From Branchiostoma floridae (taxonomy: Eukaryota; Chordata; Leptocardii; Amphioxiformes; Branchiostomatidae), in assembly GCF_000003815.2 (NCBI RefSeq), contig NC_049982.1:830604-894603 (forward strand): a DNA stretch of 64,000 bases, in the 5' to 3' direction. The stretch's first letter is position 1. The number at the start of each line of letters is the position of its first letter. Both the position numbers and the translations under genes were made by a program. Of this stretch, positions 2,607 through 62,027 are shown piece by piece. The notes under the pieces are model-generated. The model did no database searches. It was not told where the DNA came from and was given only the letters and a program-made list of their open reading frames with translations.

Positions 2607-2609
2607 TTT

Positions 2610-26665: not shown

Positions 26666-27120
26666 GAAGTAGCAATAGACTTTTCTCTTGCACAGTTACA
26701 TATGATCATGTAGATAATGCATTGTATAAATTGTATGGCTAAGCTACATTTATGCTATATAGAGGGTGCTATGCTTGTGTACAAAGACAGCTTTTGTGCA
26801 ATACACAAAATGTACATTGTGTAGTATCTATTATCAGAGCTCAAAGTGCTTTCTAGTTGGGAAACGTGGATGCAGTAACACCCCCGTGGATGAGATGTGA
26901 TATTCCATGACCCATGTTGGAAATAACATTGTGGCTTAAAGTAGGACGGTACCAATGATTATTATAGGGGGTGCAATTATATGGAGAAAATTGTGGAAGG
27001 ATGATGTTGTTTTTTTCTATGCATTTCAAGCACAAAGCATTTACATGTATATCACAAGTATGGTGGAATTATTGCTTTAACGGCTAGCACGGTTATAATT
27101 ATGCTGAGTAGAAATAGTAA
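26666..27120. other. Intergenic stretch between ANKS1 and defensin D, convergent ends
   Basis: AT-rich; only short frames. The two genes converge here (ANKS1 plus, defensins minus). Confidence 0.5.
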
Positions 27121-27448
27121 CGTTGCTTACGAAGATATGTTTATTTTTGCTGAGGTACTTGGACGTACCTTCCGTGTTCAATCACATCATAATATACATT
27201 TAACAATAAAAGGTGCGAAAACCAGCAGAAAGACGGCAGAGAAGTTTTCTTTTCACATTACAGTACATACCACTAGGGACAGTTGTCATGGCCGTTTTGC
27301 CATTCTTTATCGCCAATTGACAATGAAGTGGAGGCCTGGAATGTTTTAAATCAACATGTGGTGTATTATGGACACAGCAAACAATGACTACGGGGATGCA
27401 GACGTTCATCACCACAAGTGCAGTGGCATGGGGCCGCGTGGCCGTCGG
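27120..27448 (-). other. Defensin D noncoding 3' exon
   Basis: Acceptor ccttgttttcag, followed by sequence homologous to the 3' exons of A, B and C (catgccactgcac core). A TTTATT at about 27139-27144 (AATAAA on the minus strand) is a possible poly(A) signal. Confidence 0.5.
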
Positions 27449-27794
27449 CTGAAAACAAGGAAGCAACAAAAACGTTAGGATTATGCGGCAGTACAAAAGT
27501 TTGTTACTGATTAGTCTTTCAATCAAAATTTGATGCTTTTTACAGTATCGTATGAGCTGTATATCTTGCAGTATGTTGTCGTTGTTAGAAATTAGCAAAA
27601 TATATTAAATTTTGCGGCAGGATTTTGGTTCGCGATAGCGTTGTTCTGTCCTCTCCCGCCTACTCCTTGGTTTGCGGGAGCAGACAGAACTAAAATTTTC
27701 GCGGTGATTTTAAGTTCGCGTTCAAGAGGTCACCATGAAATCAACGAACACAAACATCGCGAATATTTCTACATTTATTTATACTAGTACCTTA

Positions 27795-27911
27795 TCAAGG
27801 GCGCACTTTAGGAGGGCGAAGGCAGCAACGATGCTCTCCCTCGCCACAGTAGGCCGATGTGATCACTTTGCTGCGGCATTTGAGGAGACATCTGCCTCCA
27901 TCTTCTCTACA
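27795..27911 (-). CDS. Defensin D exon 2 (six-cysteine domain)
   Basis: It encodes CREDGGRCLLKCRSK followed by VITSAYCGEGEHRCCLRPPK, then a short tail and TGA. Net cationic. The donor AAG|GTACTAG follows the stop by four nucleotides. Confidence 0.75.
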   Translation of the reverse strand, partial: CREDGGRCLLKCRSKVITSAYCGEGEHRCCLRPPKVRP

Positions 27912-29813
27912 CTTCCGGGAGCGGAATTTAGTAAAAAAAATTAGCATTAGACATTTTTGTCATAATGATGGTGCATGTACCTTCATTTAGGGGAAGTTAT
28001 GTTTGGCACGTGACCCTTCTCAAGTAGGATTGCCATATCACTCTAATGCTATGGTCCTATTTTTTTTTTATTCAAGAACACATGACAAAGTCAATGTGGT
28101 GCTGCGCTCAAGTTATAAAATCTTATTTGAACAGTGCACAGTACACATAACGAAATACGATATACAAATAATGAACTCAGTTAATCAACTTAACAGGGCG
28201 CCAAAGTCCCACTATACCCAAGACATAAAACACGCTCCAATTTGGAAAAGGGGCCCCTCCGGGTAGTTTACGGGCTGTTCTGCACTTTCAGGCGTGACCT
28301 CTACGTGGGACACCCAGCGGTTACCGGCCGATATCGGGCCACATAAGCCCAGAAATTGCCGACCCAAAGGGCCAGCATATATGTCTGTTTGTCGTAAACT
28401 CGCCAAAACGCGTTGATTTTGTAGTAAATGGCACATGCGTCTTGCTTTGCCGCGAATTCGAAATCTGGCAATATGACCATGATATGACTACTCTCCAAGC
28501 AGAGGTTAGGCTCCGACTGTTTTTTAAAACGTTTTTTAGTCGTTTTTATGGGACTTTCTATTTATACTGTTTTCTTGATGTCTCGCGGCCGAAAAGAGAA
28601 CAGTAAAAGATAGAATGCCCGATAAAAACGTCAAAACAGCCGGAGCCTAACCTCTGCTTGTATAGTATGATACGACGAACACACCATCGAAATGCGTCAG
28701 CTTCAAAGGAGGGCATTATTGTGGATAAGTATACAATGGGCGAGAGGATGTTACGTTTGCACAGTTGTACGACAGTCTAGATCTGTCGACGGCCAGCGAG
28801 TATTGTCCAGACAACTTCGAATTCAAAGAGTTAGACGTTCTATCCAGAACGATGAGAGAAATGGGAGAGGAGTTGAGGTCAGTTCGATTATGTTGAGACT
28901 GCCCTTTACCTTATTCTTATCACAGTCATATATCATTCACAGTCCTTGGAACCATATACCTTCTAATAGTGTACTTCTTTGATCGTTCCTGTCAATATAT
29001 TAGATATCGGTTACTTCAGCTGAGTCTGATAAGATGAACAATACAACCTACATGTGCCTCCTGCAAATAAAGACTTGTTGTTTCTTTTGATACACTGTGT
29101 TCTGTGGTTTATTTATTCATTCGTTTGGTTGAAATACCAGTCAGCCAAGGCCGCCCAACTAGCCGATGCTATTACAAAGGGCTGGCCTTGCTGTTCTGTG
29201 GTTCAATGCATAATGCCAGCTTTGTTGTCCTGCGGTTTAGCAGCTTTTTTTTTCTTTGCTGGATTTTTATTTTTTTCGCCCTCGCGCATTAGTTTTGGGG
29301 TCTCCAGAGGATGTCATCCATAAAATTAAGTCGGTGTGGCCTTATATATGAAAATGTTGGACAATCCATCTCCTACTCTCCTACTACATGCGGAAAAGAA
29401 GTCAAACCCATCAAATAGCTTAAGTAGAAATAGATTTAGATTAGTCGTTATTCCCTTTTTATCGTTTTCCTTCTTTGTTAAGTATGATTATGTATACCAC
29501 TACTGCTTTACTTTGTATGCAATTAGCCCTCGGGCATGAATTTGCAATAAAGATTATAATTGATAGATTGATTACGACTTAGATGATGTAATCTACATCT
29601 CTGTTGAATTCTGTCTGATCCTTTTCATTATTTCTTATAAAGTGTACAAAAGCCTTTAACGTGGCTTTTATGTCTAAAACCCCTTAAAGCACTATGCACA
29701 GTTTGCTGCCCTACCCGACTGTACGGTTTCGGGGCCTCGATGTCGCCCAGAACGGTGTAGGCGACCAGCAGGGCCAGGAAGAGCAGGCAGTACACTGTCT
29801 TCTTTTTCATCAT
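27795..29813 (-). CDS. Defensin gene D: beta-defensin-like peptide without hydrophobic domain
   Basis: Coding exons 29813-29715 and 27911-27795 join in phase 0 to 71 residues. Exon 1 gives a signal peptide (YCLLFLALLVAYTVLG) and a ten-residue stub. Exon 2 begins directly at the first Cys and has six cysteines spaced C-x6-C-x3-C-x9-C-x6-CC, ending CCLRPPKVRP. This is the spacing range of vertebrate beta-defensins, secreted membrane-active antimicrobial peptides. A stop codon is followed by TGATAAG|GTACTAG, the donor to a noncoding exon at 27448. The weak point is the exon 2 acceptor (cgctcccggaag); gene C uses a site about 15 nt further upstream. The gene is tandemly related to C. Confidence 0.72.
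28498..28660. mobile_element. Short foldback MITE (AGAGGTTAGGCTCCGACTGTTTT)
   Basis: Gcagaggttaggctccgact and the inverted gccggagcctaacctctgc enclose about 165 bp. Arm fragments also occur at about 640-690 and 47110-47135. It lies in the D intron. Confidence 0.75.
29270..29341. mobile_element. Right end of a Harbinger-like MITE
   Basis: Gaggatgtcatccataaaat followed by taagtcggtgtggcc is related to the right terminus of the element at 2074-2585; the left end was not found. Confidence 0.55.
29345..29575 (+). mobile_element. LINE-like 3' end
   Basis: Caattagccctcgggcatga followed by atttgcaataaagatt matches, in reverse, 31085-31320. No ORF2 remains. Confidence 0.6.
29715..29813 (-). CDS. Defensin D exon 1 (signal peptide)
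   Basis: Preceded by tatttttcag|gacga and then two consecutive ATG codons; 33 codons to the donor AGTCGG|GTAGGG. The longer frame that reads on to 29628 is intron read-through. Confidence 0.75.
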
Positions 29814-30477
29814 TCGTCCTGAAAAATAACTGACAAAAGATTGTGTGACGCCGAAGGGTGGTTAGTCATACCTGCCATTCGCAAAGTCAGATCAGGTTCA
29901 GTCAAATATAAACACAGAATCAGTGGCCGTATCACACCAGCACATGCTTTTTTAACGTGTTTGTTCAAAACAAGGCCTTTTGACCACTTATATGCAATGA
30001 AGACGTTGGTTTTGAAGGATGAAAGATTGTATACAGGAGGGAAACACTTGTTAGATAGAGTTCCATAGTGTGGCAGTCTGGAGAAAGAAACTGTTGCTGT
30101 AGAAATACGTGTAGACCTTAACTGATCAGTATAACGATGAGTGTTAGAGAAAAAAACCTAGTGTTACGCTGAAAGGCACTCAGTGGAGGGACAAGTAGTG
30201 TGAGATAAACGGAGCAATTGGCCTTTATTTACCGGTAGGAAAGGCGCAGGGAGACTTATGATATGAATAACATAATCCAAGAGCTTTCTACGTAGCGAGG
30301 CAAACCATAGTTAACAGAGACTTGGAAGATATAGAGCTTCTACAGTAGATTTACAATGTGTACAGTGAATATATCCCCACCTGTGAGACAGTATGGCCGA
30401 CAATGTTGGAGACCTCAGCGCTGATCAGCCACGGAGCGACTTCTGCATGAAATGGAATAACCTCTCTTTTTACTTAC

Positions 30478-30563
30478 TGTGTCATGGGAGAAGCCACGCA
30501 CAAACACAACAGCTTGCTTTTGACTGAAGAAGAAAGTGTCGCGTTACAGGTATACCTTCGGCG
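30478..30563 (-). promoter_or_regulatory. Defensin D 5' noncoding exon and promoter region
   Basis: The donor CCATGACACA|GTAAGT ends at 30478 and is conserved at the C locus. A TATA-like CATAAAAG lies at 30590-30597 on the minus strand, which would place the transcription start near 30563. Upstream sequence conserved with C (gatgaaggttatac, agcagcatttt) may hold regulatory sites. Confidence 0.55.
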
Positions 30564-31084
30564 GTGTAAGTCCCTATTTCTTTTATGTTATGGAAGGATC
30601 ATCATCTGATGAAGGTTATACACTCTTAAAGCAGCATTTTCGTGATGATTTAACCAAGGGGAGATGACTGTCATCATTGGGTAAGGTGTATTTGTAACCA
30701 CACCTACACTTGCCTTTTCTTGACACCGCGGTAGGTACAAAAACATCTGTCTTAAAGTGCGTATTCTATTTGGCGAACTACGACGTACTTGAATAGCTGT
30801 GCTCCACTATTGTACTGTACTATTGTAACGTTAGAATGTTATTGTAACGTTTTTGCCGGGCCGTATCGACCAGGCCCTGTCGGTTGAGGTCGTCAAGGCC
30901 ACACAAACATAAGGCACAGAACTACATTCATTAAGAAACCGCCACCCTGCCAGAAACCGCGACATCCCAGTTGGGTCTTTTTGAAGTGATAAGAAGAAGA
31001 AAACGTTATATCATGATAGTTATGTGTACATTTTAAGGGGCCTTTCTATCCGCTTCCATATCGTCAGGAGCAGGTTTAGGTCTG

Positions 31085-31320
31085 GCTACAAATAATCTTT
31101 ATTGCAAATTCATGCCCGAGGGCTAATTGCATACAGAGTAAAGTAGTAGTGGTATACATAAACATACTTAACAAAGAAGGGAAATGATAATCATAGATAA
31201 ATCAAAAGGGAACAACGTCTAAACTTAATCAATTTCTACTTAAGCTATTTGATGGGTTTGACTTCTTTTCCGTATCGCGTATGCAGTGGAAGATGAATTG
31301 TACAACATTTTCATATGTAA
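31085..31320 (-). mobile_element. LINE-like 3' end, inverted relative to 29345-29575
   Basis: Caaataatctttattgcaaa followed by ttcatgcccgagggctaat is the complement of the fragment at 29500-29560. The pair encloses the D promoter. Confidence 0.6.
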
Positions 31321-31679
31321 AGGGGTTGGACGACTTAAGCAAGAAGATGGTTTTTTGTTGGTCGGTATAAACCTTTGTCATGCGTGGTCATGCATATGGA
31401 CATAACCAAGGACTTTTGAAGAGGTTGGAACGTGGAATGTGGTAGTTTACTCAAATGAGCATAATTTTCCAATTACGACATAAATGTCAAATTAATTCAA
31501 ATTTTGCCACTATACGCTTTCGCTGAGAAATCGCCGTCTGGGCCTAACGTAAAAACTGACTTGTTTAATGCCTTGGGGTGGTTTTGCAGACAAACAAATG
31601 AGGGGAGAGAAGCACATCGCTGCCAGCTACGTGAAGGGTCGACACAAAGACGACACGCACAAAAGCTTTTTCATCAACT

Positions 31680-32250
31680 GCTACTAGACAGATCTTTATT
31701 ACGATTTCTTGTCAGAAATCTACAAATTTAGTGGGTCTTCTACAAACTCTTCAGAAGCTTTAGCCTACCTTTCAACAGAACACTCCGGAATGGCATATCA
31801 GTCATATTGCACTCGGCATCTTGTGACTGCGCCTCGCAGGTAGTTGTAAAATTGCCTGGCGCCGACTCGTGAATCCTTCCTCGTTCGTATGTTAACAGCG
31901 TCTCAGAAAGGAATGCATTTCTTACCATTATTTCGCTTGTAGACGCCGAGTTTAAGTCTAGATTCATTCCCCTTTGTCATCTCTTGCTTATATATAGACG
32001 GAAGAAGCTCGGCAGCTGTGTAAGGTTTGCATGCCAGACTTGGCTCTACCAGACTAGGCTCCCGCTAGAAGCCGAGTGCGATAAAACTGACATGCCGTCA
32101 GAAATACGCCTATCAGAAGCTCGCATAAAGCCTGAGAAGCTACAGGATGTTTACAATCAGCGGTTGTGTGTCATGATGGGCACAGCGCAGAAGGCCCATA
32201 GACTACCAGGATGCAGAGGTTCATCCGCTGACGTGCAGTGGCACCGCTGA
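31680..32250 (-). other. Defensin C noncoding 3' exon
   Basis: Acceptor tttgtccttcag at 32251; AATAAA at 31700-31695 (minus) within cgtaataaagatc. It is homologous to exons at 42543 (A), 36082 (B) and 27448 (D). Confidence 0.6.
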
Positions 32251-32833
32251 CTGAAGGACAAAGAGGCAACAAAGGCGTCAAGAAGGCTGTACAAAAGTTT
32301 GTTGAAAAATTATCAATCGAATGCTTTTTACCACCACCCTGGGGTGTTTTACAGTTTGTTCCCTTGGAAGAGTAGTCACCTTACAGAATGTGCTCGTTGC
32401 TGTATTAGAAATTCACAAAATGTGAAATGTGAATGCGTTCCAGAGGACTTGATTTCCATGTAGGGTGATCAATTAAGTGTTCGCGGGTTTTGAGTTCGCG
32501 ATAGCGCTATATAGTCAAATATAATCTACAGTTATAAATTCACATGTGACTTTACGGACAGCCAATCGGAAACACCCCAAAAATCAATTAATGACGTCAT
32601 AATTACGTCATATTACGTCATAATGATATCAACATTTTAGAAATTATAAAACTTTACGAGCACATTACCTCCTGCAAATTTGGTAATCTTACAGTACGCC
32701 GTTTTGAAATTACGAAGGGGTCCCAAATGAGCCTGAAGTTCAGGCGGTGGTCTTGAGTTCGCGTTGAAGATGACACCATGAAAGCAGCAAACATAATACC
32801 ATCGCGAATATTTCTACATCTATCTATAGTAGT

Positions 32834-32980
32834 ACCTGTTCAACGGCGGACTTTAAGTTGGCAGCAAAATGTGTTTACGTTCTTCCCACATCTTTTCAAC
32901 AACTGCGTATGGCCACCATAGGCGTCGCAATTTCGGATGTGTAGACAAATGGCTCCCTCTGGACACCCCAGAGATCGGGG
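32834..32980 (-). pseudogene. Defensin C exon 2, frame interrupted
   Basis: The acceptor is strong (attttttattgaattctttag). The in-frame peptide includes GCPEGAICLHIRNCDAYGG and ends KRCGKRT. The last two cysteine codons (TGCTGC) are shifted by two positions relative to this frame. Confidence 0.62.
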
Positions 32981-33535
32981 CTAAAGAATTCAATAAAAAA
33001 TAACATTAGACATTTTGTTATGGATGGTTCATGTACTTTTATTTAGGGGATGTTACGTTTCGTACGTTACCCTTCTGAAGTAGGATTGTCATATAATTCT
33101 AACGCTACGGTCCCATTTGGAAAGGGGGTCCTCAGGGTAGATTACTGGCTGCTTCTTCTGCATTTTCGGGCATGACGTAAGACACCCTTCGGCTGCCGGC
33201 TAATTTTGGGGCACGGCTGGGCCCCTGGATATTTTACACTCGAGTTAAGGCTACCTTTCTGCTCTATTCTGTGTTTTGAACCATGTATATGTAATGATGT
33301 ATATTCATAGATTGATTACGACTTAGATGATGTAAATCTACATCTCTGTTAAATTCCGTCTGATCCTTTCAACCTCAATACCTCAATGAAATACTCATTG
33401 CCTCAATGAAATGAAAACAGGTCTGCAGGCCGATTTGAGCTTTCATGTACAAAAAAAAATTCAAATAATTACAAAATAAACAAGTGACCGTAGGTATGGT
33501 TTATGTTGGTTGTGATGTTTTCTGTGGTGTATGAC

Positions 33536-33745
33536 CTGTGGTTTCAGAGCCAGGCCGGGGCCACATCCCTTACTGTGGCTTAGGTCCCCAGTGCACCGGG
33601 ACAAACCTGTGGCTTCGGAGCCCGGTCAGGGCCACATCCCTTACCATGGCTTAGGTCCCCAGTCCACCGGGACAAAACTGTGGCTTCGGAGCCCGGCCGG
33701 GGCCACATCCCTTACTATGGCTTAGGTCCCCAGTGCACCGGTGCC
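33536..33745. repeat. Tandem repeat, 3 units of ~69 bp
   Basis: Units with ctgtggcttcggagcccgg, gccacatcccttac and ggcttaggtccccagtgcac. It lies in the C intron and is followed to 33985 by a dispersed repeat also seen at 18260-18480. Confidence 0.85.
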
Positions 33746-34077
33746 CGTCAGGGTCCCGATGGACTGCCGGATACCGGGGGGGTACCCTTCGGTGTTCCCC
33801 ACTGGTAGGTCACTGTGTCTATTTCTGGCCGGGTCCCTGGTTCATTTTAAGTCCGACTCCATAAATACCCTCTCTTGAAATATAAAGATGTCAGATGGGG
33901 CCATATAGGGGTCACGTCCTAAAAGTACAAAAAAACAGCCCGTGTGAACTGCCCGGCAGGGCCTCATTTCCCAACTGGGACCTAAGCCTATATGGGCACC
34001 AGTGCAAATTAGATTATTTCTCATATTAAAAGTGTACAAAAGCTTTAAACAAGCACTATGCACAGTTTGCTGCCTAC

Positions 34078-34176
34078 CCCATTGTACTGATTCGGTGGGG
34101 CTTCGATGTCGCCCAGAACGGTGTAGGCGACCAGCAAGGCCAGGAAGAGCAGGCAGTACCCCGTCTTCTTTTCCAT
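34078..34176 (-). CDS. Defensin C exon 1 (signal peptide)
   Basis: ATG is preceded by tatttttcag|aacaaacg; 33 codons to donor AATGGG|GTAGGC. Its signal peptide closely matches those of A, B and D. The full reading frame is only 43 codons, so it is easy to overlook. Confidence 0.75.
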
Positions 34177-35059
34177 CGTTTGTTCTGAAAAATAACTGAC
34201 AAAAGATTGTGTGACGTTGAAGGGCGGTTGGTTATACCTGCCATTCCTATATAGGCGTATAGGACTTATAAGGACTCAAAACGATGTAACTTTATCTCTG
34301 TTATATACTTTGTCTGACAGTTGCCTCTTCCCTCATGACCTCAATGAAAAGCGGCCTGCAGGCCGATTTGAGCTTTCATGAATAAATAAAGGTTCAAACA
34401 AACAAAGAAAATAAACGGTCAGTCAGATCAGGTTCAGTCAGATATTAACACAGAATTAGTGGCCGTATCACACCAGCACGTGCTTTTTTAAAGGGTTTGT
34501 TCAAAGCAAGGCCTTTGACCAATTATGGATAATGAACTAACTGGGAGATAGAGGTGAACGTTGGTTTTGAAGGCTGAAAGATTTATACAGGAGGGAAACA
34601 CATGTTAGAGAGAGTTCCACAGTTTGGCAGTCCGGGGAAAGAAACTGTTGCTGTAGAAGGACTTTCAGGCTGGTAATTGAACAGTATAACGACGTGTGTT
34701 AGAGAAAAACCTAGAATTATGCTGAAAGGCACTCAATGGAGGGAGGGACAAGTAGTGTGAGATAAACGGAGCAATTGCCATTGATGTATCGATAAGAAAT
34801 GCACTGGGGAGGCTTTATAATATGAATAACATAATCCAAGAGCTTTCTACGTAGCGAGGCAAACCGTAATTAACGTAACAGAGACTGGAGACAGATTCTT
34901 GGAAGATATAGAGCTTGTACAGTAGATTTAGGATGATATGTCTACAGTGAATATATCCCCACCTGTGAGACAAAATAGCCGACAATGTTTGAGACCTCAG
35001 CGCTGATCAGCCACGGAGCGACTTCTGCATGAAATGGAATAACCTCTCTTTTTACTTAC

Positions 35060-35157
35060 TGTGACATGGGAGAAGCCACGCACAAACACAACAGCTTGTT
35101 AACATGTTTTTGACTGAAGAAGAAAGTGTCGCGTTACCTTCGGTGGTGGAAATTCCT
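35060..35157 (-). promoter_or_regulatory. Defensin C 5' noncoding exon and promoter
   Basis: Donor CCATGTCACA|GTAAGT ends at 35060. TATA-like CATAAAAG lies at 35183-35190 (minus). A perfect kappaB-like GGAAATTCC at 35148-35156 overlaps the inferred start region; in D this site is not conserved. The block aligns with 30478-30600. Confidence 0.5.
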
Positions 35158-35734: not shown

Positions 35735-36082
35735 AGAACTTTATTATAGCTTCTGGTCATAAATCTACAACTTTAATGGGTTTTCTACCCATCTAGTGAG
35801 AATGTTAAGCGTCCTTTTTGATAGCACACTCAACCACTTAGGCTTTATGAGGATTTACTATAGACTTTTATCTGATGGTATATCAGTTGTCTTGCATTCG
35901 GTTTCTTGTAGTAATCTCCTTAAAGAAACCAAGTGCAAAAGACCAGATATGCCGTCGGAAAAATCAGAAGTCCAAGGCTGCAAGCTGTCTAGAATCAGTG
36001 GCGGTGGTGTCATCATGGGCACAGCGCAGAAGGCCCGTGGAAGACAGAGGTTCATCTGCAAACGTGCAGCGGCATCAGGTCA
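35735..36082 (-). other. Defensin B noncoding 3' exon with hairpin
   Basis: Acceptor tttctgccag at 36083; AATAAA at 35745-35740 (minus). A long imperfect hairpin (arms 35874-35907 and 35932-35955) lies inside. The open frame of 67 codons at 36061-35858 has no counterpart in the homologous exons and is not believed. Confidence 0.55.
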
Positions 36083-36462
36083 CTGGCAGAAAACAAGAAA
36101 ATATGACACGTCACAAGGACAAAACAAAATATTTCATCGATTTTCTAGAGACGGAATATTCTAGAGCTGGCTAGATAAGGCAAAGCAGTCCTCTGTAACA
36201 CCCCCATTCCGCTAGGACAGCGACCGAGCGATTTGACGTTGAGCGCTCAACGAATTTCATATATTAAAAAAAATCGAATCTTTTTACGCTTTGAGCGTTT
36301 TGTTGTCTTTTTGGTAATACTTTTATATTTTGCAAAATATTCCATCTATGAAGCTACACAAATCAAATTTAGGTCGCAGCGAGATCGCAGCGCGGTCACA
36401 TTCCAGTGGAATGGTGGGGGGGGGTAACTAAGGTGAAACATGTTTATTTCGTCTAGATATTG

Positions 36463-36736: not shown

Positions 36737-36739
36737 TTA

Positions 36740-38600
36740 GTAGTGCAATGCGGCTTGTGTTTCCAACCAGACACCCCACGACGCACCTACTAATTTCGAT
36801 CTATGACGAAGTGTTGGAATTTTCACGTGCAGAGGTTTAACGCCTGAGACTGAAGCCTCATACACGCGACGACCGACGTAACGTCACCATCCGAAATCAC
36901 GAATGCAACGCCGCGTGACATTACCACGGCCGAGCGTCTAAAAGGTCACTGTTTTATTTGCTTTTCTATGTTTCTCTTATTAGGTGGCACAGCTATGATA
37001 GCATTTGGCTGAAGCAAAGTAGCCTCCTTCGTAGACTTCTGGTGGGACAAAACATTATTTTCATGTAAAAAAATAACGCACAAAATCGGGCATTTTGGCA
37101 TTGAAAGAAACACATGAAGAAGATTTTTGCGGCAAACACGGCGGATACTGTCAGAAAGAGGAAAACCTGGAGAGTAATCCAGTCAATTATAAAGAAAATT
37201 CTAGAACTACAGTTTTTTTAATCATTTACGGCGCGCGGCATTGCAATTTGGCTTAACACAGCGCTTCAGAGGTCAATCTAGGTCACGGGCCTGTCTACAT
37301 TCAGGCGTAGGAATATCCCGGAAGTAAGGCGCGGACCAAAACACAATTTGCGCCAAAACACACACTATTTCCTACGCTATTCTGCCATGTTAGCGTTTAA
37401 TGTCATTTCGCAGTAAATAATGAAAAATGCCAACTCAAACACAGACCCTCGGAAGCCTTTCGTCACTTTTTTGTCGTGCACTACCACGGACCCCGGTGGC
37501 GGAAGAACTGGGGTGTGCACCGTTAATATATGCAAATCATGATTAATATTGTCCATAGCTTTAAAAAGTTATACTCTATAATCGTGCCAAGTTTGAGTTG
37601 TCTGCGACTTTTCTTTCTTGAGTAACAGGTGGTTGAAAGTTGCGGTGTCGGAAGGCTGTTTTTGCGCCTCCGGGCCAGTATACAATTCAATGTATAATAG
37701 CAATCACGTCACAATGAGCTCGTTCTATGGAAGAGGTTTTAGGCCATTAATACGGGAGGAGGGGGGGGGGGCAAATCCACCAATTATATGACAGTGTAGA
37801 ATCATATCAAAACCTGCGAAATTTGGCTTTTTTTAACTCGGATTAGTTCGGGGCTATACACTTTCATGGGAAAAATGCAATTTGTTGGCTATTATCGCTA
37901 ATACCTTTTTTCAGGATGGGTGCTTTTAATATATCAAATTATGATTATTTTTGTCCATAGCTTTACAAAGTTATACTCTATAATCATGCCAAGTTTGAGT
38001 TGTCTGCGACTTTTCTGTTATGTGTTTCTCGAGTAACAGGTGGTTGAAAGCTCACAATTTGCTGGTTTATGGTTTTTGTATAAGGTTCCGGTTCGGCCAA
38101 ATAGTCCCTAAGAATAAGACTCAAATCAGAGGTTGTCTTTATAGTTTTGGCTCTAGATTTTCCGGCTATCGCTTTAGCAATGTATAATCTTTTATACTTC
38201 TCCAAATGCTTGTTGTTCGTAGCGTTTTATGGTGTCGGAGATTTGATCGTGCGGCGAACACTTCCTGGTATTAGTGCGCGCGATAGCGGTAAATCGTTTC
38301 GTCGCCTGATTACCCAGATCGTGCGTTCTATGTGCGTTTGGGGCGTTTAAGCACCATCTGGTGGAAAACGTATCGGATAACTTTTCTTCCTTTTTACACT
38401 ATACTGAAGAAGTCTTGACCTTTATTGCCATATTAGTCATTATCCCAGGAAAATTCATTTTTACCGTGTAGCGGCCTGTAAAGAATGGCTCCAAATTAAC
38501 AATTTTTGGGTCAAAAGCTTATATTTTTGATGGTTTTTACCAAAAATAACATTTCTATAGAAAATGTCAAATGAGTCTGACGGTCAGCGACAAGGCACCC
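36740..38600. other. Intergenic stretch left of defensin B
   Basis: No gene seen. A block (ttgtccatagcttta..., tcgtgccaagtttgagttgt, gagtaacaggtggttgaaag) is duplicated at about 37547-37645 and 37948-38055. Confidence 0.45.
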
Positions 38601-38604
38601 TTTT

Positions 38605-38831
38605 CTATCGGAAACATTGAATTGTCCGAAAAACGAAGTTTTGAGAAGCGCTAGTGCTTTTCTCAGAGACAGTCAAATTGGCCCCGAATCGTAAAAAAAA
38701 ACTCCGAACCGTTTTCATAATGCAGCAGATGCAGTGGTCGCCACAGTCTTCCGAGTCGAATTCGTCCTCGAAGAAGAAGCACATGGAACGGCAATTACCC
38801 ACTTTATTCGGTACATTACAGCGACCGATGC
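38605..38831 (-). CDS. Defensin B exon 2 (cysteine domain)
   Basis: Acceptor ttgactacctcaccag is homologous to the A acceptor ttgactactccaccag. The peptide has GRCNVPNKVGNCRSMC and EDCGDHCICCIMKT. Confidence 0.78.
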
Positions 38832-39885
38832 CTGGTGAGGTAGTCAAGGTACGCTACTATCAAACAAGAAACTTATTATAAGGTAACACTTGCAATAAAA
38901 TCCACAATGTTTCATATGGTCTCAGCTAACAAACTACTGCTAACACCTAACTACATATCAAATATCATCGTAACCCATCAAGAGGTTCTTGAGTTATGCT
39001 GACTACGTATACAAACATCCGGAAACACAAACAAACAGACAGACAGACAGACACATCCAAAACTATATCTCCATTTGTCATGGAGATAATTACTCCAACA
39101 CGATCCTATATGGTGACCAGCCTCTAAAGCTCTGTCCTGCCACCTACTACATAAAGTAATCGAACACCAGAGGGTGTCTGCTACTTTACCAGTAACCATG
39201 GTGACAGCTGTTAAGTGCAGGCCATTGACCTTATTTGTTAATGGAAGAAGAGGAAGACACGGAGCAAAAACAATATGTCTACAAACTTGAAGGGTAAACA
39301 TAAATATCAATATATCGTGATACGGTAACGGCTATCATAAAAAAAAGTTTATTATCCATCTGTCCATATCGTACTGGCATTGAATAGTTTGACATTTCGA
39401 CTATTTCTTACAAAGTGTGCGTGTACTGATTTACGAAAGGTAACTGCAAAAAAAAGCCATTTTTTTGGTTGTTCACATAACTAGTACTACATTAACAAAC
39501 GAATTTTGCGGAATATTCTCATATATCATGCAAATGATATATACGAAGAAACAACGAATTATGCAAAATGCATATCATGTTACTTGTAAGATCTGCCACC
39601 AAAAGCCCGCATTTAGTCGTCCGACCGCGTTTTACCATTTACGGAATTGCAAGATGACATAAAATTTGTGAGCACCCCCCCCCCCCCCCGCCATGACAAA
39701 AGTAATGTGTGGTTCAAATTGATCTATTAAAAGAAATCTAACAGCTTGTCTTCATCGGAAAGGATACTGGCTGGGGGTTCCTCCCTCTTTTGCTTCCGCG
39801 GGTCATTCTTCGGGATGGCGCCCAGGACGGTGTAGGGGACCAACAGGGCCAGGAGGAACAGGCAGTACCCAGTCTTCTTCTCCAT
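38605..39885 (-). CDS. Defensin gene B: big-defensin derivative lacking the hydrophobic domain
   Basis: Exons 39885-39768 and 38831-38605 join in phase 1 to 114 residues. Exon 1 is nearly identical to that of A (MEKKTGYCLFLLALLVPYTV, then LGAIPK) but is 105 nt shorter: the propeptide runs from RKQKREEPPA straight to the splice site. The donor A|GTATCC and about 50 nt of following intron match A. Exon 2 has seven cysteines (C-x8-C-x3-C-x11-C-x3-C-x1-CC), with an acidic FFFEDEFDSED stretch unusual for a defensin. The frame then continues 38 residues to TAG; if a weak donor ACG|GTTCGG is used instead, the noncoding exon at 36082 would supply an immediate TGA. Activity is uncertain. Confidence 0.75.
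38940..39090 (-). mobile_element. Fragment of the CCATGGAGG-end repeat
   Basis: Catcaagaggttcttgagtt and a cagacagacagaca run are the reverse of 48470-48560 in the element at 48418-49512. Confidence 0.6.
39100..39260 (-). repeat. Block shared by the first coding introns of B and A
   Basis: Atggtgaccagcctctaaag, agtaaccatggtgacagctg and ttaagtgcaggccattgacc recur at 46918-47060. The same position in both introns shows that A and B are duplicates. Confidence 0.85.
39768..39885 (-). CDS. Defensin B exon 1
   Basis: Acceptor tttgtcag|gttaaacg just before ATG, as in A. It has 39 codons plus one base. A longer frame to 39738 is intron read-through that happens to remain open (SILSDEDKLLDFF). Confidence 0.8.
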
Positions 39886-39999
39886 CGTTTAACCTGACAA
39901 ATAAATGACAAATATTTGTGGGTGGTTCTTTGGGCCATGGGGCTTGATGTCCATTGAGAATGGTTGCATTATCAATCAAGAGAGGAGTAGAAACAAGTG

Positions 40000-42340
40000 T
40001 CAAGTATATTAAATATTTTACTTTTTTTTACTTTTTTTATTTTACTTTTTTTAGCTAGAGAAGCTAAGTGATTACTGTCTGTGAAAAATCAAAATTAATA
40101 AATCCATGTGACAACTTTTATGCAATCTCCGATGACGCAAATTTGTTGAAAATGCATGAAAAACGCTGCTATTTGGGTCATCAGGCGAAAAAAACGCATC
40201 ACAGTTGCCAAAGATTAAAACAAAAAAGACGTCCAATTGCCTCCGACGCACAAACACAATACAACCTACAGCTTTGTAGAAGATTTAAAAAAAAAATCTA
40301 TACTCATCCATAACGATCACCAAGCAATAGGGAGCAGGCGTTAGTGAGACAACCCTTCCGGCGTATTACTGCGCCCTTTCTCCTGATTTGAACTCCGACA
40401 GGGAATCTTAACAAAGGTGGGTGTTACGCATACTAGTATCTCTATAAATGGAGCATTCTAGAACAAAGTGTACTTCGTTCATAATTGCATATTTGTATTC
40501 TCATTGAGGCATACGCGCGCACCCTCCTCTCTACAGCGTCTTACCCCACCAATCTGTACATCACCCTTGACACATAACGTTAACGTTACATGTATTCTCC
40601 CCCAAATACACTACACCGAAAACAAGATTCTAAATTCACATGTCACATTCCAGCGCATCGCCATTTTGAAAACCAGAAGAATTCCCTGAGGGTGGGGTTT
40701 TGGTCGTTTTATATATAATCAGCGGAGGAAACTTTCTAAAATAATAGCTACTTATATGTGTGATAACGTTAACATGTTCACAGTGACGGAAGACACCCTT
40801 CATTCCTTCACCTAGAATCAGTAAATATGGTCCCACCTGTAACACAAACTTGGTGACAGCGTTCAGGAATCTTCAAGCTTGCAGCGCTGACCAGTACCCG
40901 GGTCACGCGTGATCTGTGAATGCTGTCTAACCGGTTAACCCGTCCTTCACTAATTGACTTGAGGCAAAATGTCCAAGGTCCGTGGGAAACGTAGATACTC
41001 ATTGTGCAAATCAGGATCTAACTTAGGTAATGTATCGTTTTCCATGATAGATTATATATCCTTAGATATTACTTAGTCACATGTATAAGGACTCTCATTC
41101 ACGTGACTCTCATACATATGACATTTGTAGCGGAGAAGGGAGTTTTTTTGATCGTTAGGTATCATTTGTACAAATACATGACTGTACTTGCCCCATTCCT
41201 CTGCGGATGTGCAGCCAGTGCCATAGGCAGGTACCCAAAGTTTTGACCGGAATAGAAAACCATACACGTATTAAACCTTCGGTCATGGACCAAACCATTA
41301 CGACGTGGGTGTAAACTACAATGAGATAGTTTTCCAAATGAGAAAACTTAGGAATCTGCACCTTCGAAGCTAACGCTAGTTGATGGACGGTGACTTCAGA
41401 TTGCAATTTGTCAAAATACTGCGCATGCAGTTTGAAGCAATTCGTCGATTTCATATCCCTAATCACCCTGTTTTTTAAATAAAAAATACAACGGCCATAG
41501 GTTACCCCGCGGATAAAGGTGTACTATAGCGATCTAATGTTTAGTGCAAGCTCATGCCCGAGGAGTAATTGCAGATACAAACAACACGTATAATAAGGGA
41601 AGTACAATGGTGCTAAGAACTACATTCTATGACTATGCTGTGTTACTTCAGTGTGCATTATACTAGTGCCATCCCTCTATCAGGCCGGTCTTACCCAGCT
41701 TGCACTTCCCATCCCTTTCCAACAGAGACTACATCACGACTACTGGGCGACCGCGGAGTGACCGACGGTTTTACATGTCGCTCTCAACGAATGTCATAGG
41801 CAAGTATCATTTTTAACATTTTGTGCATTTTGGCTTCTTTTAAATCAAAAGTTATTAAATCATGCGTTATTTTCCAATTATAAAATCCAGCCTCCCGCGA
41901 ATTCCATTTTTGTCGCCGCACGTTTTCGCTGAGAGATCGCCGTCCCGTAGAAAGGTGGCCTAAAGTACAAACTGGTTTGTTCAAGAGAGCGGTTACACGA
42001 ATGTGTATGAGTTATGTATTGGCATTATTTTGCTTGTAACATTTGCGGGAAAGAGTTTTTATATATATTTTACATAGACAATTTCTTTGACGTTTACTGT
42101 GCAGTCTGGTTATCGAACCAAGATGACATTTTTCGGTCGCACACTTGACCTAAACCAAAAATGTAAATACGGATGTCATACGGACTTGAATGCCACTAGT
42201 ATAAGCACTCTTGTGATCGCCCCCTATCGCCTTGGGGCGGTTTTGCAGACAGACCAAGGGTGAGTGAATCTCATCGTTACAAGCTGTGTTAAGGGAAGAC
42301 GCAAAGACGACAAGGAAACTTTTTCATCTACTGCTACAAG
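40000..42340. other. Intergenic stretch between A and B (B 5' region)
   Basis: No coding exon recognised. A TATATAAAAC on the minus strand near 40704-40718 is a possible promoter element for B, unsupported otherwise. A LINE-like fragment (catgcccgaggagtaattgc) lies at about 41552. Confidence 0.35.
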
Positions 42341-42349
42341 GCACGGGTG

Positions 42350-42543
42350 CCATGAACTTTATTCTAACGTTTCGTCACAAATCTATAATGACGTGGTGGT
42401 CCATAATCTTCAAAATGAAGGCGGGTATGCTATGCTTGGAACAGCAAGGGTCGTCCACTGTCGGGATGTGGTTCATCAGCAGAAGGTCGTGGTCTGCTGG
42501 GAGCACAGGTCCATCCGCAGACGTGCAGTGGCATGACCGCTGG
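42350..42543 (-). other. Big defensin A noncoding 3' exon
   Basis: Acceptor tcccttgttttcag at 42544; AATAAA at 42363-42358 (minus). It is homologous to the 3' exons of the other three genes. A 3.4-kb intron separates it from exon 2. Confidence 0.6.
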
Positions 42544-43033
42544 CTGAAAACAAGGGAACAACAAGAGTTCGTAGACCTCAGGCCTGCATGAAATGTATTG
42601 GGTTTCTGTAGACCTATTGTGTATTTTTGCCTTTTTGTCTGTGGTACGTGGTTGGAAAAATGAGCTTTTTACCGTGTTGGTTGTGCACCATGCAAAAGTC
42701 TGACTCTGAAATTCCATTTTCTGAATTTGTAAGTTTGGACATGGATGAACATTACTTATTTTGGATTTCTTAAGTATGTAACCAACCACAGTACTTTGAA
42801 GTTGTTGAGACGCTACCTTTTTTTGTCTCAGATGGCCCATGCACATGTAGTTACTCTGTCACATGATATACTAATATCTTCCTATTTCAATGTACTGACC
42901 TAATGCAGCTGCTAAGTCTCCTTGGTTTGTGTTCTTCCAATGATATTCATTAAAGATTTATTTCTGGGGTGTTATTCACTTGACATCGGAATGTTACTTG
43001 CATAATTTGACCAATGATACTTTTATCTGTAGT

Positions 43034-43430
43034 TCCATAGACATTAGACAATATGAATAGTGGTAGCCCCCATGCAGCAGCAACAGTTAGTCCCCAGGGT
43101 GGTATGATATTTTCATTCAATCCATCCAACCCAAACCTAAATCTCCTGTAGTATCTAAGCCAAATTTAACAGCATAATTTACTATGAAAAATGTCCTTGT
43201 CAATCCCATTTATAGATGACAAGCTGCTGGCAATGGAAGCTTTGAAAAGTTCAGAAGCTGTTGTAGTCAGAGCAAACACCCAGCAAACATCCCCGCAAAC
43301 CAATGAGCAGTTGCTTAGAAGGGGAATTTCATCATATATTTGCCGCGACAAAATGCAACAAACGATACTGAATTTAAAACAGAACAAAGCTAAGCCTCCA
43401 CCACTTAACCCTGCCTGTACCATAGATTAA
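43034..43430 (+). CDS. Unidentified open frames, possibly one spliced ORF
   Basis: A short start (MNSGSPHAAATVSPQ, about 43052-43096, ending CCCCAG|GGTGG) and an open stretch from tttatag at 43214 to TAA 43430 (DDKLLAMEALKSSEAVVVRA ... ACTID) could form one small protein. No family is recognised, and it may be transposon-derived. Confidence 0.2.
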
Positions 43431-43619
43431 GCAGGCCCAAAAACCAAGCGAATATGACTAGCCCAAAACAACAAATTACCTGTATACAGTATGGAAATGG
43501 CATTACCAAAGAAACAAAAAGAAACACAGGACAAATCATACACATACCTTTCTCTTATGCCCACACTCTATACAGTTCTCCTCCACATTAGAAAATTGCA
43601 TCTTCTTCTGTTTAAGTTC

Positions 43620-44560
43620 AAGTTCAACCATGATTGCCAACAGGGTAAAGGAACTTGTACCGAAACTTAAAACTCAGTACTATACAGCTCTAGAAACACC
43701 ACAAAGAGTAATAAGCAAACTCCAATTATACCTGACCAACAGATATATAATCTTGTACACTCCCATCATCTGGCAAACTGTCAGTGCCACTAAGTAACCT
43801 GATACATTGAAGGTGGCCCAGGCCAGATGATGGTTCTACACCCAACCATAATCTGTTTTTAAAACCAAGCAGATATTGGGAGGATGCCCCAACCACACAA
43901 AAACAGGGTCAACCTATACAGTATCAAGTTCAAGCACTAGGAGGCCCAAAATCAAACCTGACCACCAGGACACCACAAACAACTCACGTACCAAATAGCA
44001 ACACAATGGTACCTTGCGTTCCGGAGATACAGCGCACGCCCCGTGCCCGCACAAAAGGTAACCTAAAATGTCAAGTTCAAGCACCAAGGGCGCCAAAATA
44101 AAAATTGAGCATTATTCAGCCACCGCCGACACATGTGCCAAATATCATCGCGCCAGCACCAGCCGTTCAGAAGATATAACTCCGGAAACACCCCTCCCGG
44201 ACACAAAATTCGACCTGCCGGGTCAAGTTCAAACGCGACAAGGCCCAAAGTCAATCCTAGGCAACAGGCAACAACCCCCCACCCATGCACCAAAAATCGT
44301 CGCAATCGCGCGTATCGTTCCGGACACACAGCGCCAAAAGTGCCCCCAAAACACCAAAAATGCCACCTGCAATGTCAAGTTCAAACGCCAGGAGGCCCAA
44401 AATCAAACCTGAGTGTTAGGCTACCACCCCAACCCACGTACCGAAAATCGTCGTGCTCGCACCATCCGTTCACGAGATACAGCGCCCTACATCCCCGGCT
44501 ACCGAAAAGTTCCCACCAGCATCAAAACCATACCTGCATACATGCAGGTAATAAGAAACC
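43620..44560. repeat. Diverged tandem repeat, ~150-bp unit
   Basis: Units begin tcaagttcaagcac/aaacgc...aggcccaaaatcaaacc at about 43924, 44074, 44223 and 44380, each followed by a cacgtaccaaat...cgttccggagatacagcgcc block. The open frames across it (up to 192 codons) are proline/lysine-rich and probably not proteins. Confidence 0.8.
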
Positions 44561-45500
44561 GTCAGGGAAACATCCGGCAATTCAAAAGCACGTCAATCGC
44601 AAAAGAAATCTTTCATCCAAACATTTATTATGTGGTTCCAAGGATTTAACCTCCTTGGTTGTACAGTGTGTGCTCGTGGGAGAGAAATATCTGAGTGACT
44701 GTGCTCGATAAAGTTAGAGATATAAAAACAAAATACGACATGTCAATCATATGTGATATCCGGATGTAAATTGTTTTATGAATTATTCACTCCTCTGGCG
44801 ACCAAATATGGTAAAGTTAAGGTGAAATACTCTCCCTTAGGTGAGGAACTTGGGCCTTTATCAACTTTTTTTCAAGTAATGACATACTTGTAATTGGCCA
44901 GAAAAAGTGATGGCCCATTCAAGTCTGCCGAAGTGATTTTCGACGTGGTCCAGTAACGTTCCATAAAGCAGTGAAATCATAAATACCACAAAGACATTTT
45001 TCTAAATATACAACTTGCAAATTGTATAACACAGAATGTTGTAACATGAAAACATGAATAGTATAAACAGGAACAGAAGGTATGCATATTAAACATTTCA
45101 TAATGTATATATGTTATCTGGGAGCGACATCCTGTTTTATGTGTTAATTATCATATAGCCACCGGTGCCGGTGTCGATTCATTCTGACCAATCAGGGGAG
45201 CGATACCCACCTGCCTGGCCTGAATCTACGTGTTACGGCGTCATGCGTCAGCAGAAAGGAATGCTTTGTACAGTGTGCAGTCCATGTTAGAGTTAATCCA
45301 AACATTATTACTGTTCACATTCCTTCAAATTTATTGAATATGTACAACTATAACTTAGGATTGAATAGCAACACACGTGTCCCAGCAGAAGGGAATTTGT
45401 CATTATGTCAAGCCTTTGAAGTCTTGAATAAAGTATGTAGGTATTATAAAGGAATTTGTTGCTTAAATGGGTCAGTTTGAGTAGGCTATATGATAATAAC

Positions 45501-45671
45501 GTTAATGCCCCGCCTTATCCTCGGTGTATATGGTGAGATAATCCCTGGTCAGGTGCGATAACCACCTCATAAACCACTTCGTTCGCTACGCTCACTCGGT
45601 GGTTTATTCGGTGGTTATTGCATCTGACCAGGGATTATCTCACCATATACACCTCGGGCCGGGGCATTAAC
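45501..45671. repeat. Near-perfect palindrome (~170 bp)
   Basis: Gttaatgccccgcc...ggtgtatatggtgagataat and atccctggtcaggtgcgata are mirrored by tctgaccagggattatctca and ccatatacacctcgggccgg ending ggggcattaac. The centre is acttcgttcgctacgctcac. Confidence 0.9.
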
Positions 45672-45964
45672 CCTTTATCAACTGCGAGTATTAGTTGTAT
45701 TTTGTTGTTTGGCGCTGTTAAAATACGTTTTTTTATAAATTGAGTTTGCCACACTTGTTATTGTAATTGGTGTGTAATGGTTTATTAAGAAGCAACAACG
45801 TATCACATTCGCAGCCCAAGGGTTGAATTGCAGTTGATATTACAAAAAAATAAACTAGATTAATATCCATCACCGGCAAATATAACATTATATACATAAT
45901 ATCGACCAGCGAATACTTACAACAACAATGTTGTTATATGTTTATGAATGAAGAGCGTACCTTA

Positions 45965-46092
45965 TCAATTATTTGGACGGCAGCAACGGTAACGGCCACA
46001 AACAGCCGAGTTGTAGTAATCGATGTACTCGTGGGAGAAGCAGGAGGAGCGGCACCAGCCGCGGTTGTTCGCACAGGAGTGGCTATCGCTAC
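45965..46092 (-). CDS. Big defensin A exon 2 (six-cysteine domain)
   Basis: Acceptor ttgactactccaccag; the first two bases complete a Ser codon. It encodes SDSHSCANNRGWCRSSCFSH followed by EYIDYYNSAVCGRYRCC and ends RPNN-TGA. On the opposite strand an open frame (45938-46138) is only a shadow. Confidence 0.94.
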
Positions 46093-47448
46093 CTGGTGGA
46101 GTAGTCAAGGCATAGAAAACGAAGTCTATGTTATATGAGAGTGTTCTTTATACAATGGTATGCGCATTTTTTGCCTATTGGGTTAGTTACCCCCTGAGTA
46201 GCAAACAAACAAACAAACAAGGTACGGATTATACCAGGCTTTTGTAAAAAAAAGGCGTGGCCCTGTAATTCTTGATTACGTAATCATGACGTCATTATAT
46301 TATGCATAAGTTATTGTCTTGTAACAAGGTGCTAAGGGGAAAAATCAAGAGCCATAGATAACACTAGCTTAGCCTGGGTACCATCCGGAAAGTAGTTCGC
46401 TCCGGCGTTCATTATATACTATATACCGTCGCTTCTAGCTCTGACATTCACTATACACTATATACAGTCGCTTCACTGTGTTTCCGTCTGGGAACGCGGA
46501 CCATCTCAACGTTTGGAATCGTACAAAAAGTGGAAGCACGCGCTGATCGGCCCCTACTCATGAACGAATTATGGAATGGGTTCAAACGCTCATTCGAACA
46601 GGTGTTCCAACACCGGAAAAGCCCTGCGTCCCCTTGCGCATGCAGGCGCCGGGCTGTTGTCATCGAACGAGTGCTCTAGAACTCATTCCTTACTTCGCTT
46701 ATTAACTGACGTTACCACCAAAAGGTTTGAATGCGTACGTCTCCAGACGGATAGCAGAAGCGAACATAGGAGCGAACTACTATCCGGATGGTACCCAGGC
46801 TACTGAAGTACACAGCCTGACTAGGACTAGACAAGCAAATACATCATGTTTACCTTCAGAAAGTCTCAGCCGAACAAACTACTGTTATGTTAATTGCTCA
46901 AACACAGTTGTAAATATGGTGACCAGCCTCTCCAGCTCTGTCCTGCCACTTGCTACATTATGTAATCGAATTCGAACACCACAGGGCGTCTGCTACTTTG
47001 CCAGTAACCATGGTGACAGCTGTTAAGTGCAGGTCATGGACCTTACTTGATTGGAAGAGAGGAAGACCGATCGAAAAAAAAACGGATGAAAGGAAAAGGT
47101 CACGATTTTCCCCCCACTAACCTCTGCTTGTGTAGTACATATGACGAAAGTAGCTTATTATATTAGGAGGTTCAAATTCGTCTATCAGAAGAAAGCTAAC
47201 AGGTTGTCTTCATCGGAAAGGATACTGGCTCGGATGATCCCCGCAGTCGCAACGGTAGCAGCACCAGCCAAGCCCACCAGCCAAGCCCACACGGTAGGAG
47301 ACACGGTGGCGCCCCAGTAGACGAGAGGAATTGCAAAACGCTTCTCCCTGTGTTTCTTCGGCGGAGCGCTCTTCGGGATGGCGCCCAGGACGGTGTAGGG
47401 CACCAGCAGGGCCAGGAGGAACAGGCAGTACCCCGTCTTCTTCTCCAT
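45965..47448 (-). CDS. Defensin gene A: big defensin precursor
   Basis: Exons 47448-47226 and 46092-45965 join in phase 1 to 116 residues. The order is signal peptide (YCLFLLALLVPYTVLG), short propeptide ending in a furin-type REKR site, hydrophobic domain (FAIPLVYWGATVSPTVWAWL and GLAGAATVATAGIIRAS), and a cysteine domain with C-x6-C-x3-C-x13-C-x4-CC (CANNRGWCRSSC, VCGRYRCCRPNN). This is the complete layout of big defensins, two-domain secreted antimicrobial peptides known from molluscs, horseshoe crab and amphioxus. The stop TGA is followed by TAAG|GTACGC, the donor to a noncoding exon at 42543. Transcription is from a TATA box near 48225. Confidence 0.94.
46370..46802. mobile_element. MITE with TAGCCTGGGTACCATCCGG ends
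   Basis: Tagcctgggtaccatccgg at the left and ccggatggtacccaggcta at the right are a perfect inverted pair. It sits in the intron of big defensin A. A relative is at 12225-12450. Confidence 0.88.
46918..47060 (-). repeat. Block shared by A and B introns
   Basis: Matches 39100-39260 (catggtgacagctgttaagt core). Confidence 0.85.
47226..47448 (-). CDS. Big defensin A exon 1 (signal, propeptide, hydrophobic domain)
   Basis: Acceptor acgtgccag|gttaaacg eight nucleotides before ATG; 74 codons plus one base to donor GCCA|GTATCC. The frame that reads past the donor to 47185 is intron read-through. Confidence 0.92.
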
Positions 47449-48220
47449 CGTTTAACCTGGCACGTATAGCGAAAACTATTAGCTAAGCATATCAATTTAT
47501 AGCCATGATATAAAAACTGTTATGGGATTGTGTTCTTGCAACAAAAGCGCCACCTATATCGGAGCGGCGAGAAGCAAAACTCCAGTCAGAAGCTCTGAGG
47601 AAGGTGTCTGATAGACACGTACCGAAACGTAATCCTGCTGGTTGTGAACAAGAATTCTCCTATATCTTAGATGTCAAGTATGCACATTCTGTAAATTATC
47701 ATGGAAGCTTAAGCTCATCTAATTGGTACAGTAATCAGAGCTACAATGCTAAACTTTCTTCCAACACAATTGTATACACAGATAGAATTTAAAAAAAAAC
47801 TGTCCTCTTCAGGATCAATACTGATGACCAATCACTTCAAATCAGTACGTAAACTTAGGAGAGGTACAGGCACGTGACGTCAACAGTTGGTCAAACGTGA
47901 CAGGAAGTTTTGTTGTACATTCTGAAAATGTTCGAAAAGCGAATAAACCCCAAAACAAACCGTTGTTACTTATTTCCGTATTGTTTTTGCTGGACTCTTG
48001 ATGCAATGGGTGCAGAATATATGGGTGCCATACAACCAAAATCACCCGTAATATAACTACCCTGGCCGCGGAAGATATTAAAGAAAGCGATAGGATATTC
48101 TAAAACAAAACGAGGAGCGCACCAACCTGTATATCCAGACGGCGTCTCTAGGTAAAGAGTTGAATCACGCTGCCGTGCACGTCTCTCGCGACCACTGGAT
48201 ACCGGTGGAGCAGTCCTGGC

Positions 48221-48228
48221 CTTTTATA
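48221..48228 (-). promoter_or_regulatory. TATA box of big defensin A
   Basis: Minus-strand ggaagTATAAAAGgcc is a textbook TATA box, about 770 bp upstream of the coding start. The transcription start would fall near 48195. Translation is preceded by a splice acceptor, so a 5' noncoding exon between about 48195 and 48120 is inferred; its donor was not resolved. Confidence 0.6.
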
Positions 48229-48417
48229 CTTCCTGTACGTGACTTTGGCCACGCACACTGTCCGATAACTTCCGCCAGCTGTGAAGAAGAAATGCCGCTG
48301 GCCCACAAACAAGTTCGACCCCTTTCTGCTGCCAGAAGGAAGCAAAGGAGCACACGTCAGCTCTTTTGGGGCGTTTCTTAGTAGCTGACCGGTAGTACTG
48401 ACAAGGCAACATACCGT

Positions 48418-61982: not shown

Positions 61983-62027
<45 letters not shown>

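Follow-up and report, generated by a model that had tools for sequence, protein, structure and literature searches.

Vertebrate beta-defensins are thought to be derived from big defensins that lost their front domain. A phase I intron ahead of the cysteine region is said to be common to both families (PMC7203481), and the mechanism of the domain loss is debated, the two proposals being exon shuffling and intronization, the latter a hypothesis credited to Zhu and Gao (Zhou and Gao in the spelling of PMC7203481). Here we describe a 64,000-nucleotide stretch of the genome of the amphioxus Branchiostoma floridae (the window; assembly GCF_000003815.2, contig NC_049982.1, positions 830604-894603) that carries four defensin-type gene units, A to D, arranged head-to-tail. 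In our preferred reading, to which we give a probability of about 0.78, they form a tandem array of the big-defensin family in which A is the canonical member and B, C and D have come to lack the hydrophobic domain by two different routes of loss.

Long and short big defensin forms are known to co-exist in two bivalves, Ruditapes philippinarum and Dreissena rostriformis; as far as gene structure is described there, the short gene of the clam has a short exon 2 followed by a phase-1 intron, and that of the zebra mussel has lost intron 2 (PMC7203481). That big defensins occur in amphioxus, as the original prediction noted, is already on record with a B. floridae big defensin (PMC7203481). In Branchiostoma belcheri, a member of the same genus, one big defensin gene of the same family is annotated, absent from 77% of individuals according to the results section or from 88% according to the discussion, and the sections dealing with defensins mention two arthropod-like defensin genes and no short big-defensin paralogues (PMC12373286). 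The mRNA of the B. belcheri gene is described as low in the digestive diverticulum and higher in sated animals (PMC6015868). In the literature consulted, most of it non-subscription, amphioxus is credited with no big-defensin-type genes but canonical ones, next to separate arthropod-type defensins. Measured against these sources the array with its short amphioxus paralogues appears to be new, although the co-existence of long and short forms is itself known from the bivalves. As in Ruditapes and Dreissena, short paralogues accompany a canonical gene in one genome; the differences are that the host is here a chordate and that all members lie in one array.

On re-examination, all 12 coordinates of the original prediction proved exact: the start codons of the signal exons at 47448 (A), 39885 (B), 34176 (C) and 29813 (D), the starts of the cysteine exons at 46092, 38831, 32980 and 27911, and the starts of the 3' exons, each preceded by AG, at 42543, 36082, 32250 and 27448, with every exon of the four units on the minus strand. 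The near-identity claimed for the signal exons was borne out as well (86-96% pairwise over the 24 signal-peptide codons compared), and alignment confirmed that the noncoding 3' exons are homologous in all four genes, AATAAA being present in three of them (A, B and C). The signal exon has four matches in the window and four in the whole assembly (513,431,437 bases in 431 contigs), all in the array, and none was found anywhere else in that assembly. A six-cysteine pattern (C-x4..9-C-x2..6-C-x8..14-C-x3..8-CC), broad but set after the four exons were known, gave four matches among the 127,996 residues of the six-frame translation of the window, every one in a claimed exon, and none when 21 other loci of the genome were scanned (64,935 bases; 33 loci minus 12 lying inside the array). 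Reading frames are open in all four copies, and six cysteines are retained in each of the four cysteine exons.

Because signal exon, 3' exon and array are shared, B, C and D are taken to be paralogues of A. Reading of exon 2 and tblastn and blastn searches of the introns and upstream regions of B, C and D agree with the prediction that only A has the hydrophobic domain, which makes the other three non-canonical big defensins in the sense of paralogues of a canonical gene that lack its N-terminal domain. Further copies of A were not found elsewhere in the genome, five of the seven matches lying within the array and the other two being weak (E 0.24 and 0.47), and genome-wide searches with the profiles PF14862 and PF00711 yielded no place above cut-off (4 and 22 places listed, respectively).

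Judged by its sequence, gene A is a canonical two-domain big defensin. The search of the four peptides against defensin profiles that had been proposed succeeded for A, which exceeds the PF14862 cut-off (31.5 bits, cut-off 25), and failed for the others, D staying below the PF00711 cut-off and B and C matching nothing. The precursor read from the joined exons of A has 116 residues, with a signal peptide and a dibasic prodomain site (...HREKR/FAIP; slashes mark cleavage or splice sites) apparent on reading. Its mature part matches the horseshoe-crab big defensin 2RNG through both domains (117.5 bits, E 2.4e-33, residues 3-77 of the 79-residue query), as well as the oyster Cg-BigDef5 (8BGK, 81.5 bits) and Cg-BigDef1 (6QBL, 75.1 bits). 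The two-exon model is well supported, because splicing at CCA/GTATCC yields the junction RASSDSHSC where 2RNG has RASSDNHSC; together with CCACCAG/GT this donor gives phase 1, placing a phase I intron ahead of the cysteine region, and other open splice models exist for A that lack the 2RNG-like junction. Compared with the canonical proteins represented by these three structures, A is alike in signal peptide, dibasic site, both domains, cysteine gaps and phase-1 intron and differs in nothing essential, whereas B to D are without the hydrophobic domain. Among the upstream stretches scanned, only that of A has a TATA-like box at the expected place, and no counterpart of A's promoter or exon 1 was found there for B, C or D; gene B has a TATA run at 42063-42067 whose relevance is not evident. 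A phase-1 GT (AGC/GTTTTG, 47339-47340), a poor-looking donor, lies exactly at A's prodomain cleavage site and, if used, would splice the hydrophobic domain out in frame. Intron 2 of gene A contains a 433-bp element (46370-46802) with 41-nt terminal inverted repeats that are 90% complementary, and intron 3 a unit in four copies spaced about 150 bp apart (43919-44427).

Exon 2 of gene B has a coding part of 118 nt as against 223 in A, and the in-frame difference of 105 nt covers the hydrophobic domain. The exon 2 alignment of the two genes has a clean internal gap, and a 65-bp block around the donor is 89% identical; because the sequence on either side of the gap aligns to A, the loss is best read as a deletion inside exon 2. 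A dibasic KR still stands ahead of the cysteine domain. Splice models were enumerated as GT/AG pairs, with donors up to the first stop and acceptors at most 150 nt from the first cysteine codon, and for B a single one is open, in phase 1. The cysteine domain has a net charge of -4, counted to CCIMKT, and just behind it the reading frame enters, and ends inside, an interspersed element. Genomic copies of this element carry inverted terminal sequences, and in B the tetranucleotide TTAT is found at 38717-38720 and again at 38080-38083; the ends of the element were placed from the copies and from TTAT, its first bases in B differing from those of the copies. It is 89-93% identical to the seven best-matching genomic loci, and a genome search with the B exon and its run-on gave 143 matches including B itself, the others, among the matches listed, reaching the repeat-derived part. 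Because the repeat is inserted behind the CC motif and the frame ends within it, B is the one of the four copies most likely to be decaying, or else it may make a peptide with a repeat-derived tail.

Genes C and D have taken another form. The coding part of their exon 2 is 99 nt long in each, stops soon after the signal peptide and contains neither a prodomain cleavage site nor a hydrophobic domain. The likely donors, GTAGGC in C and GTAGGG in D, occupy the same place in both, and in each gene the 150 nt next to the first cysteine codon offer a single in-frame acceptor that could be used. All the open two-exon models are in phase 0 whichever donor is taken (3/3 for C and 3/3 for D), so that in the predicted splice models neither gene has the phase I intron that precedes the cysteine exon of vertebrate beta-defensins. 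The upstream stretches of C and D resemble each other. In contrast to the bivalve genes, B combines an in-frame deletion with a kept phase 1, and C and D keep the intron in phase 0. A phase-0 intron is also reported for some of the arthropod-type (cis) defensins of B. floridae, likewise peptides of six-cysteine type, but there it lies inside the mature domain, in the c-loop, and C and D end in CC as trans-defensins do (PMC4165938, in its account of these genes). Intron 2 of gene C contains a 71-bp unit in three tandem copies (33534-33746).

The spacing 6-3-9-6-0 is typical of vertebrate beta-defensins. Gene D has six cysteines ending in CC with precisely this spacing, and 14 columns of its alignment with the cysteine domain of A are identical, the six cysteines included. 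Like vertebrate beta-defensins (PF00711), the short members would be secreted in a short form without a hydrophobic domain; unlike them, D scores below the family cut-off, and both C and D have a phase-0 intron and a signal exon in common with a big defensin. What would place D in the family is its position in the array together with its signal exon and the 14 columns identical with A; for gene C the only links to the family appear to be the signal exon, the 3' exon, the flanks and the cysteines.

It is in the cysteine exon that C and D differ most. Over all columns, their exon 3 identity is 0.48-0.50 compared with 0.77-0.78 in the flanks (p at most 1e-7 in all five gap settings, three of them with identical counts), and with aligned columns only the excess persists at p 1e-6 in those three settings. 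For cysteine-anchored codons of exon 3, the nonsynonymous (dN) and synonymous (dS) divergence between C and D is 0.75 and 0.55, against 0.09 and 0.19 for exon 2; A/B exon 3 gives 0.74 and 1.16. In the signal exons dS is 0.12-0.33 (24 codons, 2-5 synonymous differences) and exceeds dN in all six pairs, at least 1.9-fold, on few sites. A joint alignment of the four cysteine peptides misplaced cysteines and was left unused. Positive selection is not claimed from dN/dS, because both values are raised in exon 3 and the alignments are uncertain. These figures suggest that the mature exon of C and D changed fast, by substitutions and indels, either through selection for diversity or because the exon is older and conversion acted on its flanks.

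How, then, could the short forms have arisen? The closest signal exons are those of A and B (96%) and of C and D (94%), C and D being 86-89% identical to A, and the intron blocks fall into one set shared by A and B and a different set shared by C and D. Because A is canonical and pairs with B, while C pairs with D, two independent losses are indicated; because horseshoe crab and oyster share the two-domain form, that form would be the older one. The order and number of loss events that we infer are as follows. A-like copies would have been duplicated to give B, C and D, and the hydrophobic domain lost, apparently twice: in B by the in-frame 105-nt deletion inside exon 2, with the old donor kept, and, before C and D separated, through the use of a new phase-0 donor that cut exon 2 short, after which the C/D cysteine exon would have diverged unusually fast. 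B would later have taken up the repeat just behind its last cysteines. The array copies look like young relatives, though gene conversion could make them look younger than they are. We put forward only tentatively, as something near an even bet, the fuller scenario of a young array in which the domain was lost once by phase-keeping deletion and once by truncation with a change from phase 1 to 0, with fast change of the mature exon thereafter; phase I would then not be fixed among close paralogues, the short form would evolve readily, and A's GT at the cleavage site could give a short splice form as well.

Several results weigh against the reading of the locus as a family array. Exchange between neighbouring copies by gene conversion could have made the signal exons alike, so that an older history is concealed and the pairing of the copies misleads. 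Gene B matches no Pfam family, and in the PDB its best big-defensin match has E 3.3, with no beta-defensin match; gene C has no match in Pfam or among solved defensins. Against PF00711 the precursor of D scores 19.7 bits and its exon by itself 19.1, both below the cut-off of 21, two of nine shuffles of D with fixed cysteines match the same profile (15.3 and 10.6 bits), and the genome holds 22 further places with scores of 15.9-20.1 bits, in a listing from which D is missing; since the shuffles match and the score of D falls within the genome background, that score proves nothing on its own, and the best PDB match of D, a human beta-defensin, is not significant (E 0.27). The acceptor of D (ccgctcccggaag) looks weak, and neither a homologous exon 1 nor a TATA box was found for C and D in the upstream stretches scanned. 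The excess divergence of the C/D cysteine exon in aligned columns only is gone in the two cheap-gap settings (p 0.22 and 0.52), and exon-3 dS is raised too, for which reason fast change is read here without proof from dN/dS.

Some of these results are what would be expected if B, C and D were untranscribed relics and A the sole gene, a reading that we consider unlikely; it overlaps with the favoured explanation as regards origin, and the figures for the two are not exclusive. In its favour are the repeat behind B's CC motif with no native donor seen, the missing homologous promoter or exon 1 of C and D, the weak-looking acceptor of D, and the frequent absence of the single annotated big defensin gene from B. 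belcheri individuals, which implies that the family can be dispensable (PMC12373286, by either of its two percentages). Yet decay alone would not make exon 3 of C and D more diverged than its flanks, nor does it fit well with open frames and six cysteines in all four copies, with dS above dN in every pair of signal exons, or with the splice phase common to C and D.

It is improbable that exon shuffling brought the cysteine exon of C and D from an unrelated source, making it non-homologous to A's domain. The cysteine exon is indeed the part of lowest similarity and the intron phase differs from that of A, but the homology of the C/D flanks extends close to both exon edges, and the domains of D and A align with the 14 identical columns mentioned above. 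Searches of the genome revealed no convincing donor exon either: D's exon matches only itself, and C's exon matches itself and one further place (E 0.08) that has an internal stop.

We give still less credence to partial intronization, in which the hydrophobic part of exon 2 would have been turned into intron, as PMC7203481 reads the short gene of the Manila clam. The AGC/GTTTTG site of A could excise the domain in frame. In the introns, however, no remnant of it was detected (best tblastn E 0.47 in B, 0.45 in C and 0.67 in D; by blastn a single 10-nt match in B's intron and none in C's or D's), and over the introns and upstream regions of the three genes together nothing convincing was found (tblastn all E at least 0.40; blastn). 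In B, moreover, both the sequence before the gap and that after it, from the exon into the intron behind it, can be aligned directly with A. Intronization is already unlikely for B on these grounds; for C and D, decay could have erased an old remnant. That C and D are true beta-defensin orthologues, separate since before the amphioxus/vertebrate split, is hardly credible, the spacing and marginal PF00711 match of D being outweighed by signal exons 86-89% identical to A's with low dS, by a phase-0 rather than phase I intron and by a profile score within the genome background.

Table 1. Features of the four-gene array (positions in the window; slash, splice site; for 3' exons the coordinates do not give the true end)
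Feature	Position	Strand	Remarks
Gene A, probable promoter and noncoding exon 1	48127..48228	-	TATAAAAG at 48228
Gene A, exon 2 coding part	47226..47448	-	signal peptide, prodomain ending HREKR, hydrophobic domain; donor CCA/GTATCC, phase 1
Gene A, exon 3	45961..46092	-	six-cysteine domain, gaps 6-3-13-4-0; stop; donor for intron in 3' untranslated region
Gene A, noncoding 3' exon	42354..42543	-	AATAAA within 42354-42368
Gene B, exon 2 coding part	39768..39885	-	signal peptide, prodomain with KR, no hydrophobic domain; A's phase-1 donor
Gene B, exon 3 up to repeat	38717..38831	-	acidic cysteine domain, gaps 8-3-11-3-1-0, 7 cysteines; open reading frame runs into repeat
Interspersed element behind B's CC motif	38084..38716	-	about 633 bp; ends inferred
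Gene B, noncoding 3' exon	35736..36082	-	homologous to A, C and D; AATAAA within 35736-35749
Gene C, exon 2 coding part	34078..34176	-	signal peptide and about 10 residues; likely donor GGG/GTAGGC, phase 0
Gene C, exon 3	32836..32980	-	six-cysteine domain, gaps 5-5-12-7-0, charge +5
Gene C, noncoding 3' exon	31691..32250	-	AATAAA within 31691-31704
Gene D, exon 2 coding part	29715..29813	-	signal peptide and short propiece; likely donor CGG/GTAGGG, phase 0
Gene D, exon 3	27791..27911	-	six-cysteine domain, gaps 6-3-9-6-0, charge +5; starts at first cysteine codon behind GGAAG
Gene D, noncoding 3' exon	27386..27448	-	start and homologous part; no AATAAA aligned

Elsewhere in the window, where 10 of the 68 open reading frames (ORFs) were covered by the profile scan, an ORF on the plus strand at 12962-13279 contains a SAM domain (SAM_1, 51.6 bits, cut-off 23) and is probably an exon of a neighbouring gene. 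Two others, at 2607-3005 and 61971-62312, have sub-threshold matches to zf-RVT (reverse-transcriptase zinc-binding) and are possibly fragments of retroelements.

Transcription, secretion and activity of the array genes are what we infer from their anatomy and from better-known relatives. The product of A would be secreted, cut after HREKR and assemble on bacteria via its hydrophobic domain, with the cysteine domain attached. The N-terminal domain of the oyster Cg-BigDef1 is described as conferring salt-stable activity and nanonets (PMC6805989), and by this analogy A should be an assembling bactericidal peptide. Because C and D are without the hydrophobic domain and the prodomain cut, their products should be released directly as small, cationic, free beta-defensin-like peptides; by the same analogy, they should have weaker direct killing at sea-water salt, or another role.

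What does such an array say about the passage from big defensins to beta-defensins, which the original prediction had expected to be documented in this one locus? Long and domain-less forms do stand together here; but because the copies look young, they would represent a parallel specific to this lineage and not the founding beta-defensin event itself, and because the intron of C and D is in phase 0, these two would not be simple models of the vertebrate gene. At this locus, plain deletion is favoured over intronization. With one long gene, one cleanly deleted gene and two short genes as neighbours, expression, activity at sea-water salt and mechanism would become comparable in one genome. The phase I intron, key evidence for the derivation of beta-defensins from big defensins, would seem able to change between close paralogues.

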